From Jaapia argillacea MUCL 33604 (taxonomy: Eukaryota > Basidiomycota > Agaricomycetes > Jaapiales > Jaapiaceae): a stretch of DNA of 64,000 nt. Positions within the stretch are counted from its first letter, which is position 1, and the number at the start of each line of letters is the position of its first letter. The stretch covers positions 411,737 through 475,736 of the forward strand of contig KL197730.1 of NCBI GenBank assembly GCA_000697665.1, given 5' to 3'. Positions 51,044-63,449 of the stretch are shown in pieces. The position numbers were made by a program, and so were the translations under genes. Below the pieces are notes generated by a model. That model saw nothing but the letters and a program-made list of their open reading frames with translations, searched no databases and was not told where the DNA came from.

Positions 51044-54000
51044 TATTTTTCGTGGGTTCGTCGCTGTCGTCGTCGTTCGAGTTCAAGAGTCCTGAAGAAA
51101 TTACGAATTTCCGTTGCAAAGGAAGATGCCTAATACGGCAAGCTTATCGTAAAGCCGTCCGACGCCGAGGAGGGCCGAGTCGGTTCTGACCGAACCGCGA
51201 TTTATCATCGCGGGCGTTTAGTGCACACCCTAGGCAATAGGAACTGTTCAATCCAGGAGGATCGCGAGTCTATCGTCGTCATCTGTGCTATGAATATACG
51301 GAGGCCGAGAAAACACAGGTCACAGAACAACCCCGTGGATAACAGGTCTGGAGTGAAACGCGGGTATCTTTCTCGGGCGAGGGGTTCCCTACGATAGGTT
51401 GGCAGCCCAATTCCAATTCGATACAGACCAGCCAGATACAGTATACTTCAATGTCTAGGGATGCTGGAGTGCCGGTAGCTGTTACACCAATACACGAGGT
51501 TCGCAGTTATATCAGGCCGATATCAGGGGCTGATGGAAGTCAGCGGTGCTTGGGATTGTCGATGAGGAGGATCGCTGGTCAGATTTCCAGAAGGAACGGG
51601 GTAGGTACCAGAGTGGAAGAGAAGGCATCTGCATCTTCAAGATCTTGGACTCTGGGCGGCAATGGCACTCACAGACGAAGAAGAGCCGAGAAGACGACTG
51701 CGTCATATTCCCTACGTTCTAAAGGTGTCAGTTGGTGAAGGTTTCGCGATTATTCGCGGGAACAAATAATGATTCCGACCGCTCAGATCGTCAACATACC
51801 AATGACCTGAATTGAGAACTCCGACATCCCGTAGGAATCACTCAGATCTGTTCAGGTACATAGTCTGTAGCCGAAAGGGAGGCATTAGTGGAGCTTGTAC
51901 GACGAGCTCAACGTGGGACGTACAATAACCCCTGGGATGAGTCGCGGTATACTTTGAATTCGGAATTCGATGACGCAGTGGCTTCTGGGGTGATGATTCA
52001 ATAATTAATGATATCCAGGAGGCTATTATAAGCCGGGAATAGGCTGGCTCCAGGCGGTCAGAACTGCTCAGGATAACTGAGTAAGATGGGAGGACGAGGC
52101 GAATGTCAGACGTGCGAAGTGTTGTTGTGGAATCATTGAGCTTCAGGGCTATCAATTCCACGGTGCAGGGATCATCGGTACCAACCATGATCATCCTTGG
52201 GTCAAGGGCGCCATATGACGTGTAAGTAGGCGTCAGAAATATGCACGGTGGAGGTGCAATCAATCTCCAGGTTGTGGGATCTTCGTCTCGTTCGGTAAAT
52301 GGGAAGGGCCCATGGCAGCCGGGGTGCTGTAGCAGGCAGCTCGAAAGGGCCAGAAATTTGATTTCCTTGCTCTACTGATAGATTGACCAAAATTGAAGAC
52401 ATCGTGAGGGGCATGATTGAACAGGTTGTCTTTGGGAATAGGGTCGCGTCCAGTCGAGAGAAGAACATCTTCTTTATATCTGAGAATATTTAGATCCGTA
52501 GTATTTGAGACGGTACTTAGCGGTGGTCTTGGAAGATGGAGATAGGGAAAGGCTCAGAACGGCCCGTTCACCCTGCGGTTCCGAATCTTCTGCTGCGTTC
52601 CCAGAAGAAATCAGGGCAAGATACTGGTGTTTGTGGGTAAAAGAAAAATCTGAGTGTCCTCGTGCCGATACTGGTGGTACATCTGATACATCTCAGCCTG
52701 TGCATCTTGCCAAACTTTGTCTGAACCCTCCTGAGCAGCCCCTTACCCCATCATTGGATGACTCGTCTTATGGACTCTTGAATACCTCACTGTTTGAAAA
52801 CAGTCCTCTGCCTTCACCAACATTGTTTCCATTGGTGCTCACGTCTGTTTCATTGGATTCCACATCTGAAGAGGAACCNNNNNNNNNNNNNNNNNNNNNN
52901 NNNNNNNNNNNNNNNNNNNNNNNNNNNNNNNNNNNNNNNNNNNNNNNNNNNNNNNNNNNNNNNNNNNNNNNNNNNNNNNNNNNNNNNNNNNNNNNNNNNN
53001 NNNNNNNNNNNNNNNNNNNNNNNNNNNNNNNNNNNNNNNNNNNNNNNNNNNNNNNNNNNNNNNNNNNNNNNNNNNNNNNNNNNNNNNNNNNNNNNNNNNN
53101 NNNNNNNNNNNNNNNNNNNNNNNNNNNNNNNNNNNNNNNNNNNNNNNNNNNNNNNNNNNNNNNNNNNNNNNNNNNNNNNNNNNNNNNNNNNNNNNNNNNN
53201 NNNNNNNNNNNNNNNNNNNNNNNNNNNNNNNNNNNNNNNNNNNNNNNNNNNNNNNNNNNNNNNNNNNNNNNNNNNNNNNNNNNNNNNNNNNNNNNNNNNN
53301 NNNNNNNNNNNNNNNNNNNNNNNNNNNNNNNNNNNNNNNNNNNNNNNNNNNNNNNNNNNNNNNNNNNNNNNNNNNNNNNNNNNNNNNNNNNNNNNNNNNN
53401 NNNNNNNNNNNNNNNNNNNNNNNNNNNNNNNNNNNNNNNNNNNNNNNNNNNNNNNNNNNNNNNNNNNNNNNNNNNNNNNNNNNNNNNNNNNNNNNNNNNN
53501 NNNNNNNNNNNNNNNNNNNNNNNNNNNNNNNNNNNNNNNNNNNNNNNNNNNNNNNNNNNNNNNNNNNNNNNNNNNNNNNNNNNNNNNNNNNNNNNNNNNN
53601 NNNNNNNNNNNNNNNNNNNNNNNNNNNNNNNNNNNNNNNNNNNNNNNNNNNNNNNNNNNNNNNNNNNNNNNNNNNNNNNNNNNNNNNNNNNNNNNNNNNN
53701 NNNNNNNNNNNNNNNNNNNNNNNNNNNNNNNNNNNNNNNNNNNNNNNNNNNNNNNNNNNNNNNNNNNNNNNNNNNNNNNNNNNNNNNNNNNNNNNNNNNN
53801 NNNNNNNNNNNNNNNNNNNNNNNNNNNNNNNNNNNNNNNNNNTCTCTCATTGCTCACAACTAGCAAAATCAGAATTAGGGAGAAATTGACAGATATACCT
53901 GGTTCCCATTATAATATCTCCCACTTCATGATTGTTACACTCAGGGAGATCTTTCTGCACCCTTTACAATTCATTGAACCCATTACCAGAGTCACTTCTG

Positions 54001-54656
54001 ACAACTGATGGGTCCCAGGGTGTTGTCCATCGACAAGCAAATTAAAGAATCCAGTGGTACAGGCAGAATAAGCAGATAAAAGTTAACTTTCTTGAGGCTT
54101 GTGGGTGGATAAAGACCAAAGACCTCGTTGTAGATAAAATTCGGATTTTTCTGAAGTCATTTGGTCGTCTGAGAGGCTGTGGATGAGGAGCTACAAGCAT
54201 CAGAGGGACCGTGAGAAAATGCGCCCAAAACGTCCGAATATAGTAACTACAGCCACGCATCTGAGGCGTAGGAAAATAATTGAAACTCCGCTATCTGGCC
54301 GGTATCTACCACACACACCAGTAGCAAGCCGAAATCAGGTCAGGCTTGTATCAAATTTGAGTGGACAGAACAAGAGGGGTCCGACAAAAATATTTGCGAC
54401 ATCATCCTCAAATTCTGACGAAGACCCTGGAAACTGGGGATAGGGAGATAGTCCTTCCCTTTAAGGGGTGTCCAGACCACGAATTTCACTTCGTTCAATC
54501 ACGTTTACGGATCTAACTGGCGCGTTGGTAGACGCGTCCTCGAGCCCCCCGCTCCTACTCTTCCACTAGGTATAGGCTAAGATACAAAACTAGATGTGAG
54601 TAGTGGAACAATATGTACGGTAATATGTAGAGTATATACACCCCAATCTACCTGCA
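51044..54656. other. Accessory, gene-poor stretch with a 964-N gap
   Basis: The LCB2 promoter occupies the first few hundred bases. The rest contains no recognised gene. A plus-strand ORF runs from 52505 into the gap (LFENSPLPSPTLF and a Ser/Glu-rich end), and another open stretch leaves the gap at 53843 (SHYNISHFMIVTLREIFLH) and closes at 54008. Both are composition-biased and match nothing I know. A retroelement hidden by the gap is possible but unproven. Confidence 0.4.
52879..53842. other. Assembly gap (964 Ns)
   Basis: A continuous run of N. ORFs reported across it are artefacts. Its place in accessory sequence suggests an unresolved repeat. Confidence 0.99.
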
Positions 54657-57600
54657 TCACATACTGGGCCGCCTTCGTTTCATTGAGGATTGCGAGGAGG
54701 GGATTGTGACTGAGTGCCGCTTCCGAGAGTTGCCACCCTGAGATGGAGGCACGGCTATGGTATTCTGTGCAGCTAATACTGCTGGAAGATTCTTTGGGGG
54801 GATCTTGCTGTCAAAAATACCAAGTGAGTGCTCTTCGTCATCCGAGATGAACATTGTGAAGAGTAGAGGATCGGGAGGGAGAGGCCCATCCTCAACGCCG
54901 TCGACTGAGAATTCCGGATGGACAGTACGAATATGCTCAGGCATATTGTATTTCCAAACAGCCGTGCGCATGCCTCCGACCTCGCCGGTGCAGCCCGCGA
55001 AAGTACAGAGAATTGGAACATTGGTACATGGGCTTGCGGAAGTTGAGCAGAGGGTGGACTTGTATTTGAATGTTTCCGCGTGCTGACAGTTGCTGCATGC
55101 TTGAGGGTGGGCACCTTTTGTGAGGAAAACTTCAGAGCAGTTGGTGATGCCTGATCACCCGCAGAAACCACAGGGCATTGCATGTCCAACCTAGAATGGG
55201 TTTCAGGTCACGAAATGAATAGATAATGTTGAAACGAGAACGTACTCCACCACCACGAAGCTCCTCCTCAACTCCCCGCATCGCTCAAAGTATATGAGCC
55301 CCAACGTGATGGCGCACTTTCTTCAGATCCGATAGGAGGGCGAGGCACTGATAGCAGTGGAATACCTGGGGTTTGTCCTGCTGCTGGGCTTGTAGAGCCA
55401 CAGAACAAGGTTCTGAGATGAGAGTGGGAGTGCCTAAAGGCGAATGGGACATATCAATAAGGAGGCAAAAAAGATGAATTGAGAAAGACTGAAACTACCC
55501 ACCAGAGATATCAACATATGGGAAGGTTTCGTTTGAACAGAACCTTGGCAAGAGCGAAATAGCTTTCTTGTCCCTCACGTTCTCCCAAAGTTTTTCCAAC
55601 ACTAAGTTCAGCTCCTCCCCCAACATCTCCCACGTCAAGCCGGATTCGTTAAGCTGCGATAGGGTGGTGTCTGGCAGAACACCTTTCATATCTGCAACAC
55701 GAGGATTAATAGGTTCGCATACGGAACTGTTCACCTTGACGGCGAGTGCCTTTCGCGTGGCTTTGCCCACTGGATTTGGATTGGCTGAGTGGAGGCCGAA
55801 CTTCACGAATGTGCCATTCCAAATCCACCTCCCTTGTGAGTCGGAGTCGCGGACATCATCAGATGACAACGTGATCATCTGCATCCCGAGAAGTTGGCCG
55901 GTAATTTTGATACCTGCAGCGGCATGAGGCAGTGATTGACACTTGACATGATCAACAGTGGCACCTCTCTCTTTGAGGGAGATGCTCTTCAGGATTGTGA
56001 GCGCAACTTGATCTTCGCAGATAACAAGGGTGGTGAACAGATCACCGGGGAGGAATGTATCTGGATCGAGCAGGTCTTCAAGACGGAACGTGAATAAGAT
56101 GGTGTCGTCGGAGTAGATTCGTACACGAAATATCCTCTCGTGGGATTTGCGACAGTACTCTGGCGTGATGATGATTCGACAGAGCGAAGACTTATGGATC
56201 TTCTTTCCGTTGACCTCAATATACTGTGATGCATTGCGAGCAGCCAGTGAAGGAGGGAGGCGATGTTCATCTGGCTCGTCAAGCATGTCTACCAACTCAA
56301 CGTGATGAATGTCATCATCTACATTGGGGCAGGGAGTGTTGTCATCCAATTTGAAGACTGCAGCTCGATTGGTAGTGGCATCTTCAATGGACATCACATG
56401 GTCTTCGAGATCATTGTCATTGTGTCCTGTCGGTACTGGACGTGAAGGAGATGATTGCAGTGAGGTGGCAAGAGGGACCGGAGATGATGACGGTGAGTCA
56501 GCTACGATTTCGGGTTCCATGGACCAGTCAGGTTCTGTTGAGACCCCAGGGTATTTTCCATCGCCAAATGGTTTCAACATATCTACATTACGGCAGGTGT
56601 CAAAAATGGAGGTAAGGTCAACAGAAAGACCAATGGTTTCGAGAGTGGCAAGGGCTTGATCACGGCCAGTGTACCAGCAGGATTCCAGGTGAGGTTTCCA
56701 TGTCGTTGCATCACCATCCCAGCTCTCGGGATTCAGATGGTCAAGCTTGTTGGACGATGTGATTTTCAGCCGTCGAAAGCCTTGATCAAGGTTAGGGTGT
56801 CGCGCGAGAACACTATCGATATCGACCGCAGCTCTGAGACGGTCAACAAGCTCTTTAAAGTTGAAATTGGGGTTGTGACTGCCTTGCATACGGACTCAAC
56901 CAAAGAGGGCCTCGAGACGGTCATCACCCAACCAGAAGAGAAATAACTTCTGGTCGCCATCCTCCACCTGCTGCTTGGCGACACAGAAGAAGACATTCTT
57001 CACAGTGGTTTGTGTATCCCCATAGAGCTGGGCTGGCATCAAATTTACCCGATATTCGTGGAAGAGAATGAACACCATGTGAGCATACTTGCTCAAGGCT
57101 GTCAGCTGCTGTGCGAGACACCAGTCGTGTTTCGAGAAGCCATCTACAAATGCAGAAAACATTTCGCCGATAACACGAATGATTTTGATCTCCTGGAGGA
57201 CTCCTGGATTTGGATTGGGACCTTCAATCGCAGCAACAGCACGGATGAGGTCAATGGCGCGGGGTACATCTTGTGCATTGGCAGGGTTCATCAAGGTATT
57301 GATTTCGTGTTCCGAGTGATGTCCAGTTCGAAGAAGGTGTTGAATTAAGATGTGGCGATTAACGATTGTATTGCCAACAACCATACCCTCCTGCGTTCGC
57401 AAGAGCTGAGACATGCCTGAGAGTAAACTTCAGCGATACATTGCAAATCACGGCCAAAATACGTACGTTTAATCTCATGCTTCCAGTCGAAATCGGCAGT
57501 GATATCGCCATCTCCAACATAAAGGTTCAGCCCTGGTAAACGACTGAGACGTCCATATAGAGGATGTTGAGGTTCGATCATATGCTTCATGAACAGTAGG

Positions 57601-59999
57601 TACATCATGGCTCGGCGGCTTGCAGCTCCATCTGACGAGAAGCTCTTTATTGGACCAAAGATTGGTGCTCCAACCTCGTTCCACGATGTAATCACAGTTT
57701 CGGCAATACGAGCAGATTCCTCTGGAGTTTCGGCACCACAAGTTGGTGACACAACAACTGGGAATGCGCCACGAAGTTGAGTACCGAACGATGCCAGGGC
57801 GATGACGGAAGCTTCCTTTCCGTAATGAACTTCGCCCTCGTAAAGCGCTCGCACAATGCTTTCCGCACTCTCCAGGGACGTAAGCCAAGTCGAGATGCGG
57901 TGAACATGTTGTCGACACATCCCCCCCACTGCATCCAAATGGCCAAAATAGCACGCTTGTTCCTCTTCCGCTACCTCATCCCAAAGCATGCACATTCCTG
58001 AGGGAAAGGGAGACTCGAGTGCCTTTGCCCGAGGAAGAAAATTTTCTCGCATGTTGAAAAGAACTTCGTCCAATGTCGGTACTCCAGGGCTTGGCATGAT
58101 TCGAGTGAAGGTCTTGTGGTTCTTGATGGCAGTAATGCTGGGAATCGAGATGTAGTGACTGAGGGCGTAGAGTAGCTTCCGCCCACCAAGGTGGAACACC
58201 AGGAGGGCAATGTCAAAGTCTGTGGTATCGTAACCTCTAGCGTGATAGATGCCGAGAAGACTGTCTTTGAGTTTGGAAATGATTTTCGATAGACTAGCGC
58301 CTTCTTTCAGGGCTTGTCGAATGAGCTGCTGGAGACGTGGTACATCTCCTGTTGCTACCGCCATTAAAAACCGCCTGCAATCCTGTACTCTTTGCATAAG
58401 AGAAGCACATCTTTGACCAAGGTTCAAACTCTAATCAGAGGTGGTCAGGTTTGGATCAAAAAAAGAGGAAGAGACTCGACATACTTCACGCTTCAAGGCC
58501 AAAATAGTCTCATCACGCTCCTTCAAAAGTTCTCGAAGCTGTTCATGGGTAAGGTACTTGTGGTTGGTGTGGGCTGACACCTTCGCAGCCATTGAAGCAA
58601 GCCGCTCAACCTCCTTCGTCACTGACTGACATTGCAGGCAGGGGGAGCCATCAGATACCAAATACATGTTGCAATGCTTGGAGCGCACACGAAAGCTCTG
58701 GCCGTTCTGCTCCACAGCACAGAATTGATACCCGATGGTTGACGGAGAGTATTCATGGCGCTGAAATGGGTACGATTCGAAAAAATGGTCCCTTGGCCAA
58801 CGAAGGGGAATGCCGGGACAGTGGGTGAGGTTTGAAGACAAATGACTCGGCGAGGGCGAAGGGAGGGTGCCATTAGAGTGGTGTAATGTCGAATCATCAC
58901 TGAGAATCATGTCGATGTCCCTAGAAAGAGGTAAATTTCAATGATGTTGCGAGCGAGGACAAATTGTTACTCACGACGATGAATCGACATCCTCAAAGTC
59001 CTTTGGCACCATAATGTCGAAAGCCACAAGAGGCTGGCCAGACTCCACCCAATCTGGCGACATCGGGCTTGGAACAGTGGGCTGTGGAAGCGGCGAAATG
59101 GGAAATAAGGCCTCTCGAGCTTGCGAGGCTCCAGAAACCTCCATTTCCTGAGACCTAACTCGACACTTCTTCACACTTCTCATGTGACCGATCAACGGCC
59201 CCATGTTCATCTTTCGCGATCCCGTCAAGATCCAATGTGAGCACTTGGGACAACGAACATGGTATGTTTTGTTTTTACCCAGCTTGTCCCATTGTAGATT
59301 CTCTGCTCGAAGAGACGGCGTGGACTCGGGAAGAATCGAAGGATGTGTAGGTAGAGTTGGGAAGGAGGGAAGGAGGAATGGTGGGGTTGGGGCTGATTCA
59401 GTGGGGAAGCTAAGTGGAGCAGACTGGACCAAAGTCGAAAAAGCCATATGTGCTTGGTCGGGAGTCGAGTCATTCGAATACACGAAGGTGGGTAGTGTAG
59501 TACTAGTAGTGTTTTGGGGTAGAAATCGAAGGGAGTTGGAATCCCATTGGGACCAATCTGGTTCAACACTGTAATCTCGAGCTAAAAACTCGGAGATTGC
59601 CTGAGACGCATCAAAAGGTGCGCCGCCCTCGTAGTCGTCGACAAGCATGGACTCATCGTCGTCAGCAATAGCGAGGGGCTCTTCTAATTCGCGTGTGGCA
59701 TTGAAATTGTGAGGGAGAGAATTGTCGTAAGTGTAGTCTGCTAGCAGATTTGATATTTCGAGCTGGGGAGATGTTGTTGTGGTGGGGAACGTCGATCGGG
59801 AGTCACAGAGTTCGGCGGTCGAGAAGGGGATCAAAGATGGGGAACTAAAGTCAAGTCTATCCGGCTTGGGCTGCACGCTGTCTGGGAAGGAAACAGCTGT
59901 CGTCGATGGAGGAGCTCCATCACCCAACATGTGCAGTTTTGACGCCCCTTCTGACCGCGGCGAACGACTGGTACTGCAGTGCGACCAACGCGCCAACAA
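54657..59999 (-). pseudogene. P-element/THAP9-like zinc-finger transposase family member, with three in-frame TGA codons
   Basis: Six exons join in one consistent frame: 59999-58975, 58920-58485, 58430-57467, 57416-55503, 55433-55246, 55190-54657 (5,061 nt, 1,687 codons). The N-terminus is disordered, then a zinc finger CPKCSHWILTG...HMRSVKKC. A coiled coil (YLTHEQLRELLKERDETILA) leads to the core: LRRFLMA-type helix, GIYHARGYDTTDFDIALLVF, LGGRKLLYALSHYISIPSI. Candidate catalytic pieces follow: CMLWDEVAEEEQACYF, IKSFSSDGAASRRA, LYVGDGDITADFDWKHEIKR, a helical insert with INTLMNPANAQDVPRAIDLI, and LGDDRLEALFG. The order Asp-Glu + G-VG, Ser-Asp-Gly, Asp-x2-His-x2-Lys, DxxExxFG parallels P-element and THAP9 DDE transposases. 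The C-terminus holds further fingers (HCYQCLAL...HHVGAH, MPCGFCG, CTFAGC...EHIRTVH). TGA codons lie at 56896-56898, 55285-55287 and 55155-55157. Family membership is from memory of agaricomycete multicopy proteins. The P-like link is inference. No flanking inverted repeats were found by eye. Confidence 0.7.
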
Positions 60000-60641
60000 G
60001 CACGGCGTTTGGTTGGAAATCTCTCACGATATTTCCACGTGGGATCAACAGGTCGTCATATTGTGTATTTTCGGTTGCTCAAGGTCTCAGACTGCCCGTC
60101 TTTTCGCAAGCATACACAATGTCATTGCATTATTATGTTCGTGTTGTTCGTTTGGTGAGAATGCCACTCAAAAAAAAAGTAAGAGAAAATGCGCGACATG
60201 ACGCGAAAGTGGCTGAAAATCGACCCCGAACACCACTAGGCTATCCACTTGCTCAGAGGACGATGTTCCCGATACAGATCTTGGACCCCTCTTGGGACAG
60301 AACGCAAAAGATTGGGGTCGATTGTTCTTGTTGAGCAGTAGAAGGGAGGAAGTAAGTACACAGTCCCAGTGCTCAGTGGGCGTAGAGAAATCGAGGACCT
60401 TCGAGGACCGAGTTCAACTCGCCATTGAACAGGCGTGAACGATGGGTCACAACCACGAGATTCATGTCACATCGCCACGTCCTCGCTCAGCATACAACAA
60501 CTCATCGACCTGACAAAGTACACGTCTATTCACTCTCCATTCACTGGAACTGCGCTCTCCGATAAGTCATAAATCTGAGGTACGGAATGAGATTCAAACT
60601 AGCATGTACTACATTGTCTCACTGCGTTTAGCACAGATTCA
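60000..60641. other. Upstream region of the transposase-like gene
   Basis: 642 bp, no gene. A 10-bp inverted pair aatcgacccc/ggggtcgatt lies at 60219-60228 and 60314-60323. It is too short and common to call a transposon end. Confidence 0.4.
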
Positions 60642-61010
60642 TCACCACGCTTCGTCTGAGTCTCGCAACCTCAGGCTGATGTTCGTATTATGTCTGTGAG
60701 CTTTTGCCCCGCGTAAAACAATATAATTCTCTCCATATCTGTGGCTCCGCAGGATCGCAAGCTGACGAAAAGATTCCAAACTAAATCGCAAGTGTTCCCT
60801 CGGCAGGTCCATGTCGGAAACTTCCAACAGCTCGCTCAATAAAATCATATCTGTCGACACTTTATCAAGCGAAAGCTCCGACCCCGTTTCTCCTGGCGAT
60901 CCTAGCAGCGTCATGTATGTCCCACTCATGGCTTCTGAATTCTGAATCTCGGTCGTCGACCCGACATCGTCGGACTCCGTGAAGCTGCTCCCTACCTCGC
61001 CGATCTCCCT
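60642..61010 (-). CDS. Short coding-like ORF, unrecognised
   Basis: On the minus strand an open frame from above 61000 continues through an ATG at 60929 (MSGTYMTLLGSPGETGSELS) to a stop at 60642. It has amphipathic, protein-like composition: DKVSTDMILLSELLEVSDMD, then LPREHLRFSLESFRQLAIL. It may be a small protein or the last exon of a gene. No family is recognised, and it may be chance. Confidence 0.3.
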   Translation of the reverse strand, partial: REIGEVGSSFTESDDVGSTTEIQNSEAMSGTYMTLLGSPGETGSELSLDKVSTDMILLSELLEVSDMDLPREHLRFSLESFRQLAILRSHRYGENYIVLRGAKAHRHNTNISLRLRDSDEAW

Positions 61011-61566
61011 TCGTGTGGCACGCTCAACAGCACCACCGTTGTGTCGTTGGCTTTGTTGCCTGCGGTCTCAAGCAACTTCGGTCGTTCAGGTGTAATGTCG
61101 CCGTCTGCCTACTTTTGTTCAACGGACATGTGAAGACTATTCAATGGATCCTGGTTACCTCAGAATTCGGCGAGGGGAAAATGTATTGGATAGGATCGAT
61201 CATGATCATGGACGGTAAGTGAATGACAGAAACAACTGGAGGTGATAGCACGTATGTAACCTTTGAGTTGCATCTACGGAGTATTCAAGGGCCTCGATGG
61301 CAGGGTATTGAAACACACACGTTTGATAATGCGAACCGAGGAGTTTGTGAGACTATAGTAACAATATCCGTGCAGTATACGAGGGTTTTGAGTCTGAAGT
61401 GGCGCAGAATTGACGGAGTGGTGCTTGTTTTGGGACGGCCACGTGGTGCAGTCTTGAGTGAAGGTCTGCAGACCAAGCTTGCTCTTCAGATCTACCCTTT
61501 GAATATTCACTTGGATACTACCGAACTACGTTCTTTGCTACGCTGGCCAGAGAGTGCTGTGCGGCC

Positions 61567-63449
61567 ATGGTTTCTACCGTCCACGAACTGCCATCCGAAC
61601 TCCTTGAACAGATCTTTGGTTTATTGGACGTTCGATCTATTCTGAAATGCCAATCGGTAGGTCCTGTGCACAAGGCTACTACGTGCTCTGAGATAGGGAC
61701 TCCTTGATCACAGGTATCAACATTCTTTCGTGACTTGATCCAAAAATCCCTGCTCCTCCAATATACCATCGAACTCGGTGTGGCTGGATACACCAATAAC
61801 TCAGCCAGCCCTTCGTCCATCGAAAAGCGTCTTCAAATGCTTGAGCAGCATCAAGCTCAATGGACGGCACCCGTCTTGGAATGTTCCAACACCATTCGCC
61901 TCCCAAACCAAGATCCAGATGGTGGTATGCGCCATTTCGAAAATGGAATGCTTGTGGACATGTACGACGCGACGAATACGGGAAAGTGGGGGTTTGACAC
62001 TCTCACTATGTACAACCTCACCTCTGTCGCTGAGGTGCCATCGAGCTCCACTATCAGAACTCAATTCGAGTTCAGTAGCTCATCAGCTATGGATCCGTTA
62101 CAAGATCTGATGATCTTTGTACTGGTTCCGGCTCAGCCACGACCGTAAGAAGAACGCTATTTCACTGCTTCTAATTGCAAACTTGGGACTGACTTGTGAC
62201 TGCAGATCGTATTTTGAACTCTCCATTGCCTCGCTTCGTGACGGAAATCCACATCCACGTGCGACTTCTCAATCCATCCGAGTCGGGTCTGCGGATATCA
62301 ACATGGATATGCCTCTATGCACCGGAGTTCAGATCGCAGGCGATCTGTTACTTCTGTCCGTCTACACTCAGAAGTATGCTCATAAGCTGGAGCTTTTCGT
62401 GTTGGACTGGACCACGGGTCTTGTCCGAGGGGCAAGTCTGGTAACATTTTTAAGTGCTGACTAGCGAGCTCATTCTATTATCATAGAAAATTCAGCAACC
62501 GGGAAATCGTATTCTGAACCACTTCCTCCTCGTGTCGGACAGCTGCCTACTCGTGTGTTGCCTCGAAAGGCAACGACGGTTACCCATCGTTGATGTTTAT
62601 CGTCTCGATAATTCACCATCGATCCAGCCTGGTTCTCAGAAACTTGCGACGATCGTCAGAACATTTGAACTCCCTGCTCCCAACTCCGACCACATCACGA
62701 GAATGAGGTTTGCCACCGATACTGCTCGGACATACCCACCCTCAGAGTGCGAAAAGTCTTCGGGACTCCCCTTTTCAATGCCGTCCAATAATCGTCTAAT
62801 CTCACTAACCCTGCGGATATCCGAGAACAGCACAGACCACACGCAGCATCTGTTCGATATCTTCACCCCATTGGGCACCTTCCTCCATTCGCACAAAATA
62901 TCAGAAGAGTCCACGGTAGTGCGGTGGAAGGACTGGGGACCATCTTCGACGCGTTGGTTTCGTCGCTTACAACAATCACCGTCTCACCAAATGCATGGAT
63001 ATCGCGTCATAGCTCTCAACCGCATTTGGGACTTCAATCCACTGGACGTAGCGCGAGATATGCACCGCTCTAATATGCGGTCTACTTCCGACGATGCCAC
63101 TCTAAATGCAAATTCTCAATCGACGGCCGAAGTTTGGCCCACCACCAAGCCAGGACAGCGAAGTTGGATCAGAGCGGAGCCGACTACGATCAAAGCTGGT
63201 GGGATCTTTCAAGATGATATCATCTCGACATTGCCCTATCGCGAGACGTGGTTTGAGAAGCCTTTGAACGTGGAAGGAGTTTGGCTGTCAGATAGAGTGA
63301 TTGGCTACTCGGTGGGTCATCCGCTTCCGTGCCATTTGCTGATTCTCACCCGCAACCCCGCAAGCTTGACGACCAGAACTTCTACGCCGATGTGTACCAG
63401 GGATTATGCTGCGTTCCTAGATGCGCCGAGTGACTCTGTAGCTGCGTAG
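61567..63449 (+). CDS. F-box protein with a long beta-rich C-terminal region
   Basis: The start at 61567, MVSTVHELPSELLEQIFGLL, then DVRSILKCQS|VSTFFRDLIQ across an intron (61657-61713), is a clear F-box: Leu-Pro-x-Glu-Leu-x3-Ile-Phe, Leu-Cys/x-Val, Phe-Arg-x-Leu-Ile. F-box proteins link Skp1 of the SCF ubiquitin ligase to substrates. The next segment, YTIELGVAGYTNN and KRLQMLEQHQAQW, is the typical follow-on of the agaricomycete F-box family (a helix-rich link to a propeller-like region). The rest is strand-rich: VGSADINMDMPLCTGVQIAG, DLLLLSVYTQ, ELFVLDWTTGLVRG, DSCLLVCCLE, DVYRLD. This suggests an irregular beta-propeller, though no WD40 repeat is clean. Further introns lie near 62150-62205 and 62440-62487. 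About 565 residues. The substrate is unknown. Confidence 0.78.

Follow-up and report, generated by a model that had tools for sequence, protein, structure and literature searches.

A dead DNA transposon with a probably P-like transposase in the genome of the basidiomycete Jaapia argillacea

P elements are among the best-studied transposons of eukaryotes. According to the excerpts of the literature used here (PMC7776569, PMC3985635, PMC9587614, PMC6416283, PMC4168063 and PMC3212892, besides the papers cited below, which were likewise available as excerpts), the fly P element makes 8-bp target site duplications, and its transposase is described as unique in using guanosine triphosphate (GTP) as a cofactor, which is held by eight listed residues. 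The P signature consists of D, D and E residues plus a [C/D](2)H motif (PMC8230255). The D(2)H motif is common to five superfamilies, Galileo, a member of the P superfamily, makes mostly 7-bp duplications, and the THAP domain is described as confined to animals. The locus compared with these systems lies in a 64,000-nucleotide stretch of the 43.7-Mb genome of Jaapia argillacea MUCL 33604 (assembly GCA_000697665.1, contig KL197730.1, positions 411,737 to 475,736 of the forward strand), hereafter the window. It holds a dead DNA transposon of the cut-and-paste kind, the gene of which encoded a probable transposase of the Asp-Asp-Glu (DDE) type, most likely a distant member or a sister of the P superfamily.

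P elements are already known from Basidiomycota. Rust fungi carry P elements with characteristic 8-bp duplications, which were then new for Dikarya; Melampsora has autonomous and non-autonomous elements, and Puccinia has remnants (PMC3164196). A survey of 257 genomes places P among the superfamilies found in all main groups, fungi included (PMC4438587), and P goes unmentioned in the available part of a survey from 2025 on TET-bearing DNA transposons of fungi, which was not aimed at P (PMC12730594). A partial literature search, with subscription journals and Repbase outside its scope, found no report of P elements in mushrooms. The rust elements (Repbase P-1_PSt, P-1_MLP, P-2_MLP, P-N1_MLP and P-N2_MLP) share with the family in the window a basidiomycete host, autonomous and non-autonomous forms and 8-bp duplications, and the two, likened here by description and not by sequence, may belong to the same lineage. 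Since the rust elements are known, the host group is not the novelty, but the divergent protein is; the element matters less than a first fungal P element would, and its interest lies in the distance of the protein from known P transposases.

Ends, target site and mobility of the element

The P-like DNA transposon is 5,924 bp long, lies on the minus strand at window positions 54371-60294 and encloses the whole gene. The top pair of a blind inverted-repeat search over positions 53860-61500 was 54371-54409 with 60256-60294 (39 nt, 72% complementary), which flanks the gene on both sides. The terminal inverted repeats are exact over 12 bp (CAAGAGGGGTCC), and a perfect 8-bp target site duplication (TTCTGTCC) abuts both ends, with no ninth base matching. 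Copies elsewhere in the genome are named by contig (C66, C32, C37 and so on), the window being C22 411737-475736. The whole element and its ends are as follows.

54371..60294, minus strand: whole element, dead copy (blind inverted-repeat search; 5' end common to C66, C32 and C57; adjoining 8-bp direct repeat)
60295..60302, minus strand: target site duplication, 5' side, TTCTGTCC (longest exact repeat, 8)
60283..60294, minus strand: 5' terminal inverted repeat, CAAGAGGGGTCC, 12 bp exact
60256..60266, minus strand: inner inverted repeat, ACATCGTCCTC, 11 bp, 16 bp inward of the terminal repeat
54399..54409, minus strand: inner inverted repeat, 3' end, ACATCATCCTC, at equal spacing
54371..54382, minus strand: 3' terminal inverted repeat, 12 bp exact
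54363..54370, minus strand: target site duplication, 3' side, TTCTGTCC

The 5' end of the window element was recovered by blastn in C66 (82% identity), in C32 (83%) and, inverted, a second time in C32 (81%). In the window, C32, C66 and C57, a terminal repeat of 12-16 bp is followed by 12-16 other bases and then by ACATC[G/A][T/A]CCTC, and the ends of C32, C66 and C57 carry the inner-repeat motif with no more than one change; the element ends are thus bipartite. Both ends were located in seven elements, and 13 or 14 of the first 14 bases are paired in all seven. A perfect 8-bp duplication is present in six of them, namely the window element, the two C32 elements and C57, the last three with ends placed by homology between copies and the window with ends placed by the blind search plus homology at one end, and C37 and C29, whose ends came from a scan that itself demanded an 8-bp repeat. 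The C66 element has no such duplication. When flanks were shuffled, a 13/14 inverted repeat together with an 8-bp duplication appeared in none of 200 trials (40 per copy, five copies), and the real flanks of the five copies contain no duplication of 9-12 bases. At lengths of 3-7 bases there were zero hits in the window and C66, and hits at some of these lengths in C32, C37 and C29; at length 8 the C32 flanks gave three hits, one of them within the terminal repeats.

Several copies exist, one insertion is nested and some derivatives are internally deleted (see below); together with the terminal inverted repeats and the perfect 8-bp duplication, this makes it certain in practice that the element is a mobile one. 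The mobile or once-mobile origin proposed in the first-pass annotation of the window is thereby borne out, and the shared boundaries, inverted repeats and target duplications that it proposed to look for among genomic copies are present, with C66 alone lacking a duplication.

The joined flanks of the window element revealed no empty copy in the genome: two of the 14 matches are the flanks' own halves, and the other 12 are partial (46-54 bases, all in the first 55, 94-100% identity). Just outside the element, about 50 bases at 54281-54335 are present at 12 other genome sites with 94-100% identity, and since the stretch ends there, it resembles the terminus of a separate short repeat. A masked stretch (N) adjoins the element at about 52880-53860. 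About 1.2 kb from the element, a short open frame on the plus strand (61462-61707) matches the F-box model just short of the threshold (E 3.1e-05, 24.1 bits against a cut-off of 24.3).

The transposase gene and its catalytic motifs

The gene within the element can be modelled on the minus strand as six exons with GT-AG introns. The model used here, one of several with compatible splice sites, starts with the ATG at 59930 and has 1,662 codons. The exons, motifs and stops are as follows.

58978..59930, minus strand: exon 1, with a CxxC...H...C finger pattern (splice sites modelled)
59163..59252 (approximate), minus strand: N-terminal zinc-finger pattern CPKC...HMRSVKKC (C2HC), read from the sequence and recurring in C32, C66, C37 and C29
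58485..58920, minus strand: exon 2
57467..58430, minus strand: exon 3, with D1 (WDE, 57978-57980), D2 (SDG, 57630-57632) and D(2)H (DWKH, D at 57486-57488)
55503..57416, minus strand: exon 4, with the insert region, the catalytic E (DRLEALFG, E at 56911-56913) and a long C-terminal region
56896..56898, minus strand: in-frame TGA stop at residue 958 of the model, immediately after LEALFG
55246..55433, minus strand: exon 5, with a C2H2-type pattern, FHCYQC...HHVGAH
55285..55287, minus strand: in-frame TGA stop in exon 5, residue 1472 of the model
54657..55190, minus strand: exon 6, with a second C-terminal finger pattern (C..C...WKYNM..H....H)
55155..55157, minus strand: in-frame TGA stop in exon 6, residue 1497 of the model

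Because of these three in-frame stops, all of them TGA, the window copy of the transposon is dead; the first one sits right after LEALFG, so that all of the sequence past the region of the catalytic Glu is lost. The first-pass annotation described six exons in one frame of 1,687 codons. The six exons do join, but the frame is broken by the stops, and 1,687 codons would require a start upstream of the ATG at 59930. It had overlooked both the stops and the ends of the element, which fall beyond the gene. The motif blocks that it named (CMLWDEV, SSDGAAS, DFDWKHEIKR and LGDDRLEALFG) and their exon order can be read directly on the minus strand, and the zinc-finger patterns that it placed at both ends of the protein are present and recur in C32, C66, C37 and C29, where the C-terminal ones appear as CxxC...HxxxH and C..C...WKYNM..H....H. 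About 700 residues follow the E motif in the window model, compared with about 220 in the fly P transposase.

D151, D267 and E490 (core numbering) are invariant in all five aligned genome copies. Over the five cores, the D1 motif is WDE, IDG or MDE, the D2 motif is [SLT]DG, and the E motif is DxxExxF, with NxxExxF in one. The D(2)H motif is readable in each of the five, although in C29 only in another frame, the exon end being unclear there. In the window core the distances are 116 residues from D1 to D2, 48 from D2 to the DxxH motif and 223 from D2 to E; the D2-E distance in C37 is 226.

Relatives in the genome

The genome holds at least seven further coding relatives and two internally deleted derivatives, the counts of coding relatives being lower bounds. 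A genome search with exon 3 found at least seven places, namely the window itself, C66 (72%), C32 (68%), C37 (31%), C29 (29%) and fragments in C60 and C27, and the C37 copy as query added one fragment in C21. With the 143-base end of C32 as query, eight places were found, including C57, C2, C42 and C28 as new ones; the 5' end only was seen in C2, C42 and C28. The ends of C57, of C2 and of the second C32 element are each 96% identical to the query. The elements with a duplication, besides the window element, are as follows.

C32 element 1: 6,048 bp, duplication GGACAGAA
C32 element 2, inverted and internally deleted: L034:5536-6914 (C32:80536-81914), duplication ACTCGGAG
C37 element: 10,998 bp, the part examined including 3,693 masked bases, duplication CTTTTAGT
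C29 element: 5,732 bp, duplication CTGCACCC
C57 element, internally deleted: 1,588 bp, duplication GTGGTGAG

C32 element 1 is nested within the 3' terminal repeat of C32 element 2, each with its own duplication. The target of C32 element 1 (GGACAGAA) is the reverse complement of the window duplication (TTCTGTCC), which hints either at a target preference or at a terminal repeat that the window site once carried and has lost.

Among the genome copies examined, none was both full-length and intact. The C66 copy is broken by stops, the C32 copy is interrupted by a stop in its reading of exon 1 and appears to lack the donor site of exon 3, and C37, C29 and C27 have stops in their matched parts; the C60 fragment is free of stops but is truncated by the start of its contig. 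The three close copies (window, C66 and C32) have a pairwise DNA identity of 0.60-0.64 over the element, a divergence of about 40%, so the coding family is old in this genome. Decay of the CpG or repeat-induced point mutation type is not claimed on the basis of a comparison of the three close copies: the C-to-T rate is 0.11-0.18 at CG and 0.06-0.15 at CA, CC and CT, and in the window copy C-to-T at CT exceeds that at CG, and G-to-A peaks at AG, not at CG. A scan of viral contigs for relatives gave 27 pattern matches, none of which was confirmed.

Kinship with the P superfamily and other explanations

The core of the window protein has the D-D-D(2)H-E order of the fly P transposase, with a D2-E distance of 223 residues here and 228 in fly, and it shares a DxxE and FFG-xxR-like E motif with the fly protein (PDB 6p5a, 6pe2). 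The fly element also makes an 8-bp duplication and also has terminal and inner inverted repeats, but the ends are bipartite with 12+11 bp here as against 31 bp in fly. TNP-like_RNaseH_C, the P-element RNase H C-terminal domain, is the Pfam family matched by most cores, in two of the five and below threshold (best match E 0.029, 14.8 bits against a cut-off of 24), and the match of the C32 core covers residues 495-513, that is, the E motif. The E motif is also the best block when the core profile is aligned by hhalign with the fly transposase (P-value 0.032, score 23.8, probability 1.6), the sequence used having been checked to be identical to PDB 6p5a. Under relaxed settings, the alignment path places D303, D339, H342, K345, D528 and E531 of the fly protein on D267, D315, H318, K321, D487 and E490 of the window protein. 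When the alignments are ranked by probability, no shuffled fly protein out of 100 exceeds the real one, and the reversed fly protein scores 15.5. The motif order, the D2-E spacing, the 8-bp duplications, the sub-threshold Pfam match and the weak profile alignment together indicate that the protein is likely a P-like DDE transposase. The divergent P-superfamily transposase of the first-pass annotation is thus supported, and membership of the P superfamily proper is not proven.

Several observations weigh against this assignment. A Pfam search with pieces of the window protein and the five cores gave nothing above a curated cut-off, and the profile, searched against solved structures at E values up to 10, found no P transposase; its sole match there, a designed-looking binder (E 0.1), was taken as chance. 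The D1-D2 distance is 116 residues here and 73 in fly, and the distance from D2 to D(2)H is 48 here and 36 in fly (fly residues 230, 303, 339 and 531). The first catalytic D of the fly protein, D230, is out of register in the relaxed path, and shuffled fly proteins reach the real hhalign score in 6 of 300 cases. Among the controls, which were the longest reading frames from eight hAT loci and eight KDZ (Kyakuja, Dileera, Zisupton) loci of the same genome, every frame has a lower score than the fly protein, and one hAT-locus frame, L057, with a score of 22.6, beats the fly protein in P-value (0.024) and probability (2.0). Because of the equal-scoring shuffles and L057, the hhalign comparison with the fly protein is by itself weak evidence. 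In the weak alignment, the GTP-contacting residues V401, F443 and D528 are kept, K400, S409, D444 and N447 differ and K385 is unaligned; since most of these contacts are not kept, the insert of the window-type transposase probably does not hold GTP as that of the fly enzyme does. The window protein has no match to the THAP domain and carries the C2HC pattern in its place, whereas THAP9 and the zebrafish P-like elements, which are of an animal lineage, carry a THAP domain; since THAP is described as an animal domain, its absence is compatible with a fungal P lineage. PF21787 has no match anywhere in the genome and, being silent in every control as well, is uninformative. As to the RNase H-like fold with an insertion after beta5 that characterises the P superfamily, an AlphaFold2 prediction of exon 3 alone from a single sequence gave a low-confidence, mostly helical model (mean predicted local distance difference test score 38).

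The same data could be read as a superfamily of its own, a fungal sister of P and hAT, in which the P-like motifs were inherited from one DDE ancestor. The absence of a curated match, the mostly missing GTP contacts, the longer D1-D2 distance, the long C-terminal region and the fingers at both protein ends would all fit this, but the motif order, the D2-E spacing, D(2)H and the DxxE within the E motif are P-like, and this alternative is considered a minority possibility. That the element is a divergent hAT transposon appears unlikely. hAT elements start with CA and carry BED-type zinc fingers, and the C-terminal CxxC...H...H patterns of the window protein recall the latter; the C/DxxH motif is shared as well, and the P-value of L057 is better than that of the fly P protein. 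Duplications of 8 bp are also what hAT elements produce (PMC12730594), so that this feature of the element speaks for hAT as well as for P. The hAT dimerisation domain, however, is absent from the window protein pieces and the five cores although the same model matches 31 places in the genome, the other seven hAT-locus frames score just 10.8-18.6, and the best Pfam family of the core, albeit below threshold, is of the P type.

KDZ elements are common in this genome (71 matches), which fits a basidiomycete, and Dileera is described as making 8-bp duplications, which again deprives the duplication length of part of its weight for P. There are no KDZ matches in the window protein pieces or the five cores, however, the eight KDZ-locus frames have profile scores of only 12.9-17.3, and Kyakuja is described as having 7-bp duplications and no terminal repeats; a KDZ identity is highly improbable and was rejected on the domain search and the low scores. 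The multi-exon structure and the long conserved reading frames of the relatives might also suggest a host gene with no assigned function, possibly domesticated from a transposon. Enclosure by element ends with a matching duplication, the three stops and the broken appearance of all three close copies (stops in the window and C66, the exon 1 stop and apparent donor loss in C32) leave this explanation barely plausible. DUF6589 (PF20231) was tried as a closer relative and rejected, with no match in the window protein or the five cores and an hhalign probability of 0.2, obtained with a DUF6589 alignment in which introns and stops were unresolved. The genome has 23 DUF6589 matches on 12 contigs (C35, C40, C14, C87, C13, C22, C3, C12, C29, C6, C21 and C10), many of them with stops, as would be expected for another transposon family. 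DUF6589 proteins thus share with the window family the genome and a multicopy state with stops, but no profile similarity, and the literature search found no paper naming DUF6589.

In the proposed mechanism, the element ends, perhaps their inner 11-bp repeat, would be recognised by the zinc fingers at one protein end or at both. A predicted RNase H-like core with D151, D267 and E490 and an insert after the DxxH motif would excise the element and insert it into target DNA through joins spaced by 8 bp, repair of the target would leave the 8-bp duplications, and internally deleted copies would be mobilised by the enzyme from full-length copies. It is conceivable, and put forward here tentatively, that the family represents a fungal lineage unrecognised by Pfam that is a deep branch or a sister of P, combining a P-type core and 8-bp duplications with fingers in place of THAP at both protein ends, bipartite element ends and an insert that lacks GTP contacts.

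By means of the element ends, a gene family that otherwise lacks annotation can be recognised as transposons. A P-like lineage in fungi that lacks GTP contacts and THAP would open the question of the origin of the cofactor, and, if the deep-branch hypothesis is true, it would suggest that a simpler transposase of the P type gained GTP use and the THAP domain in the animal branch.

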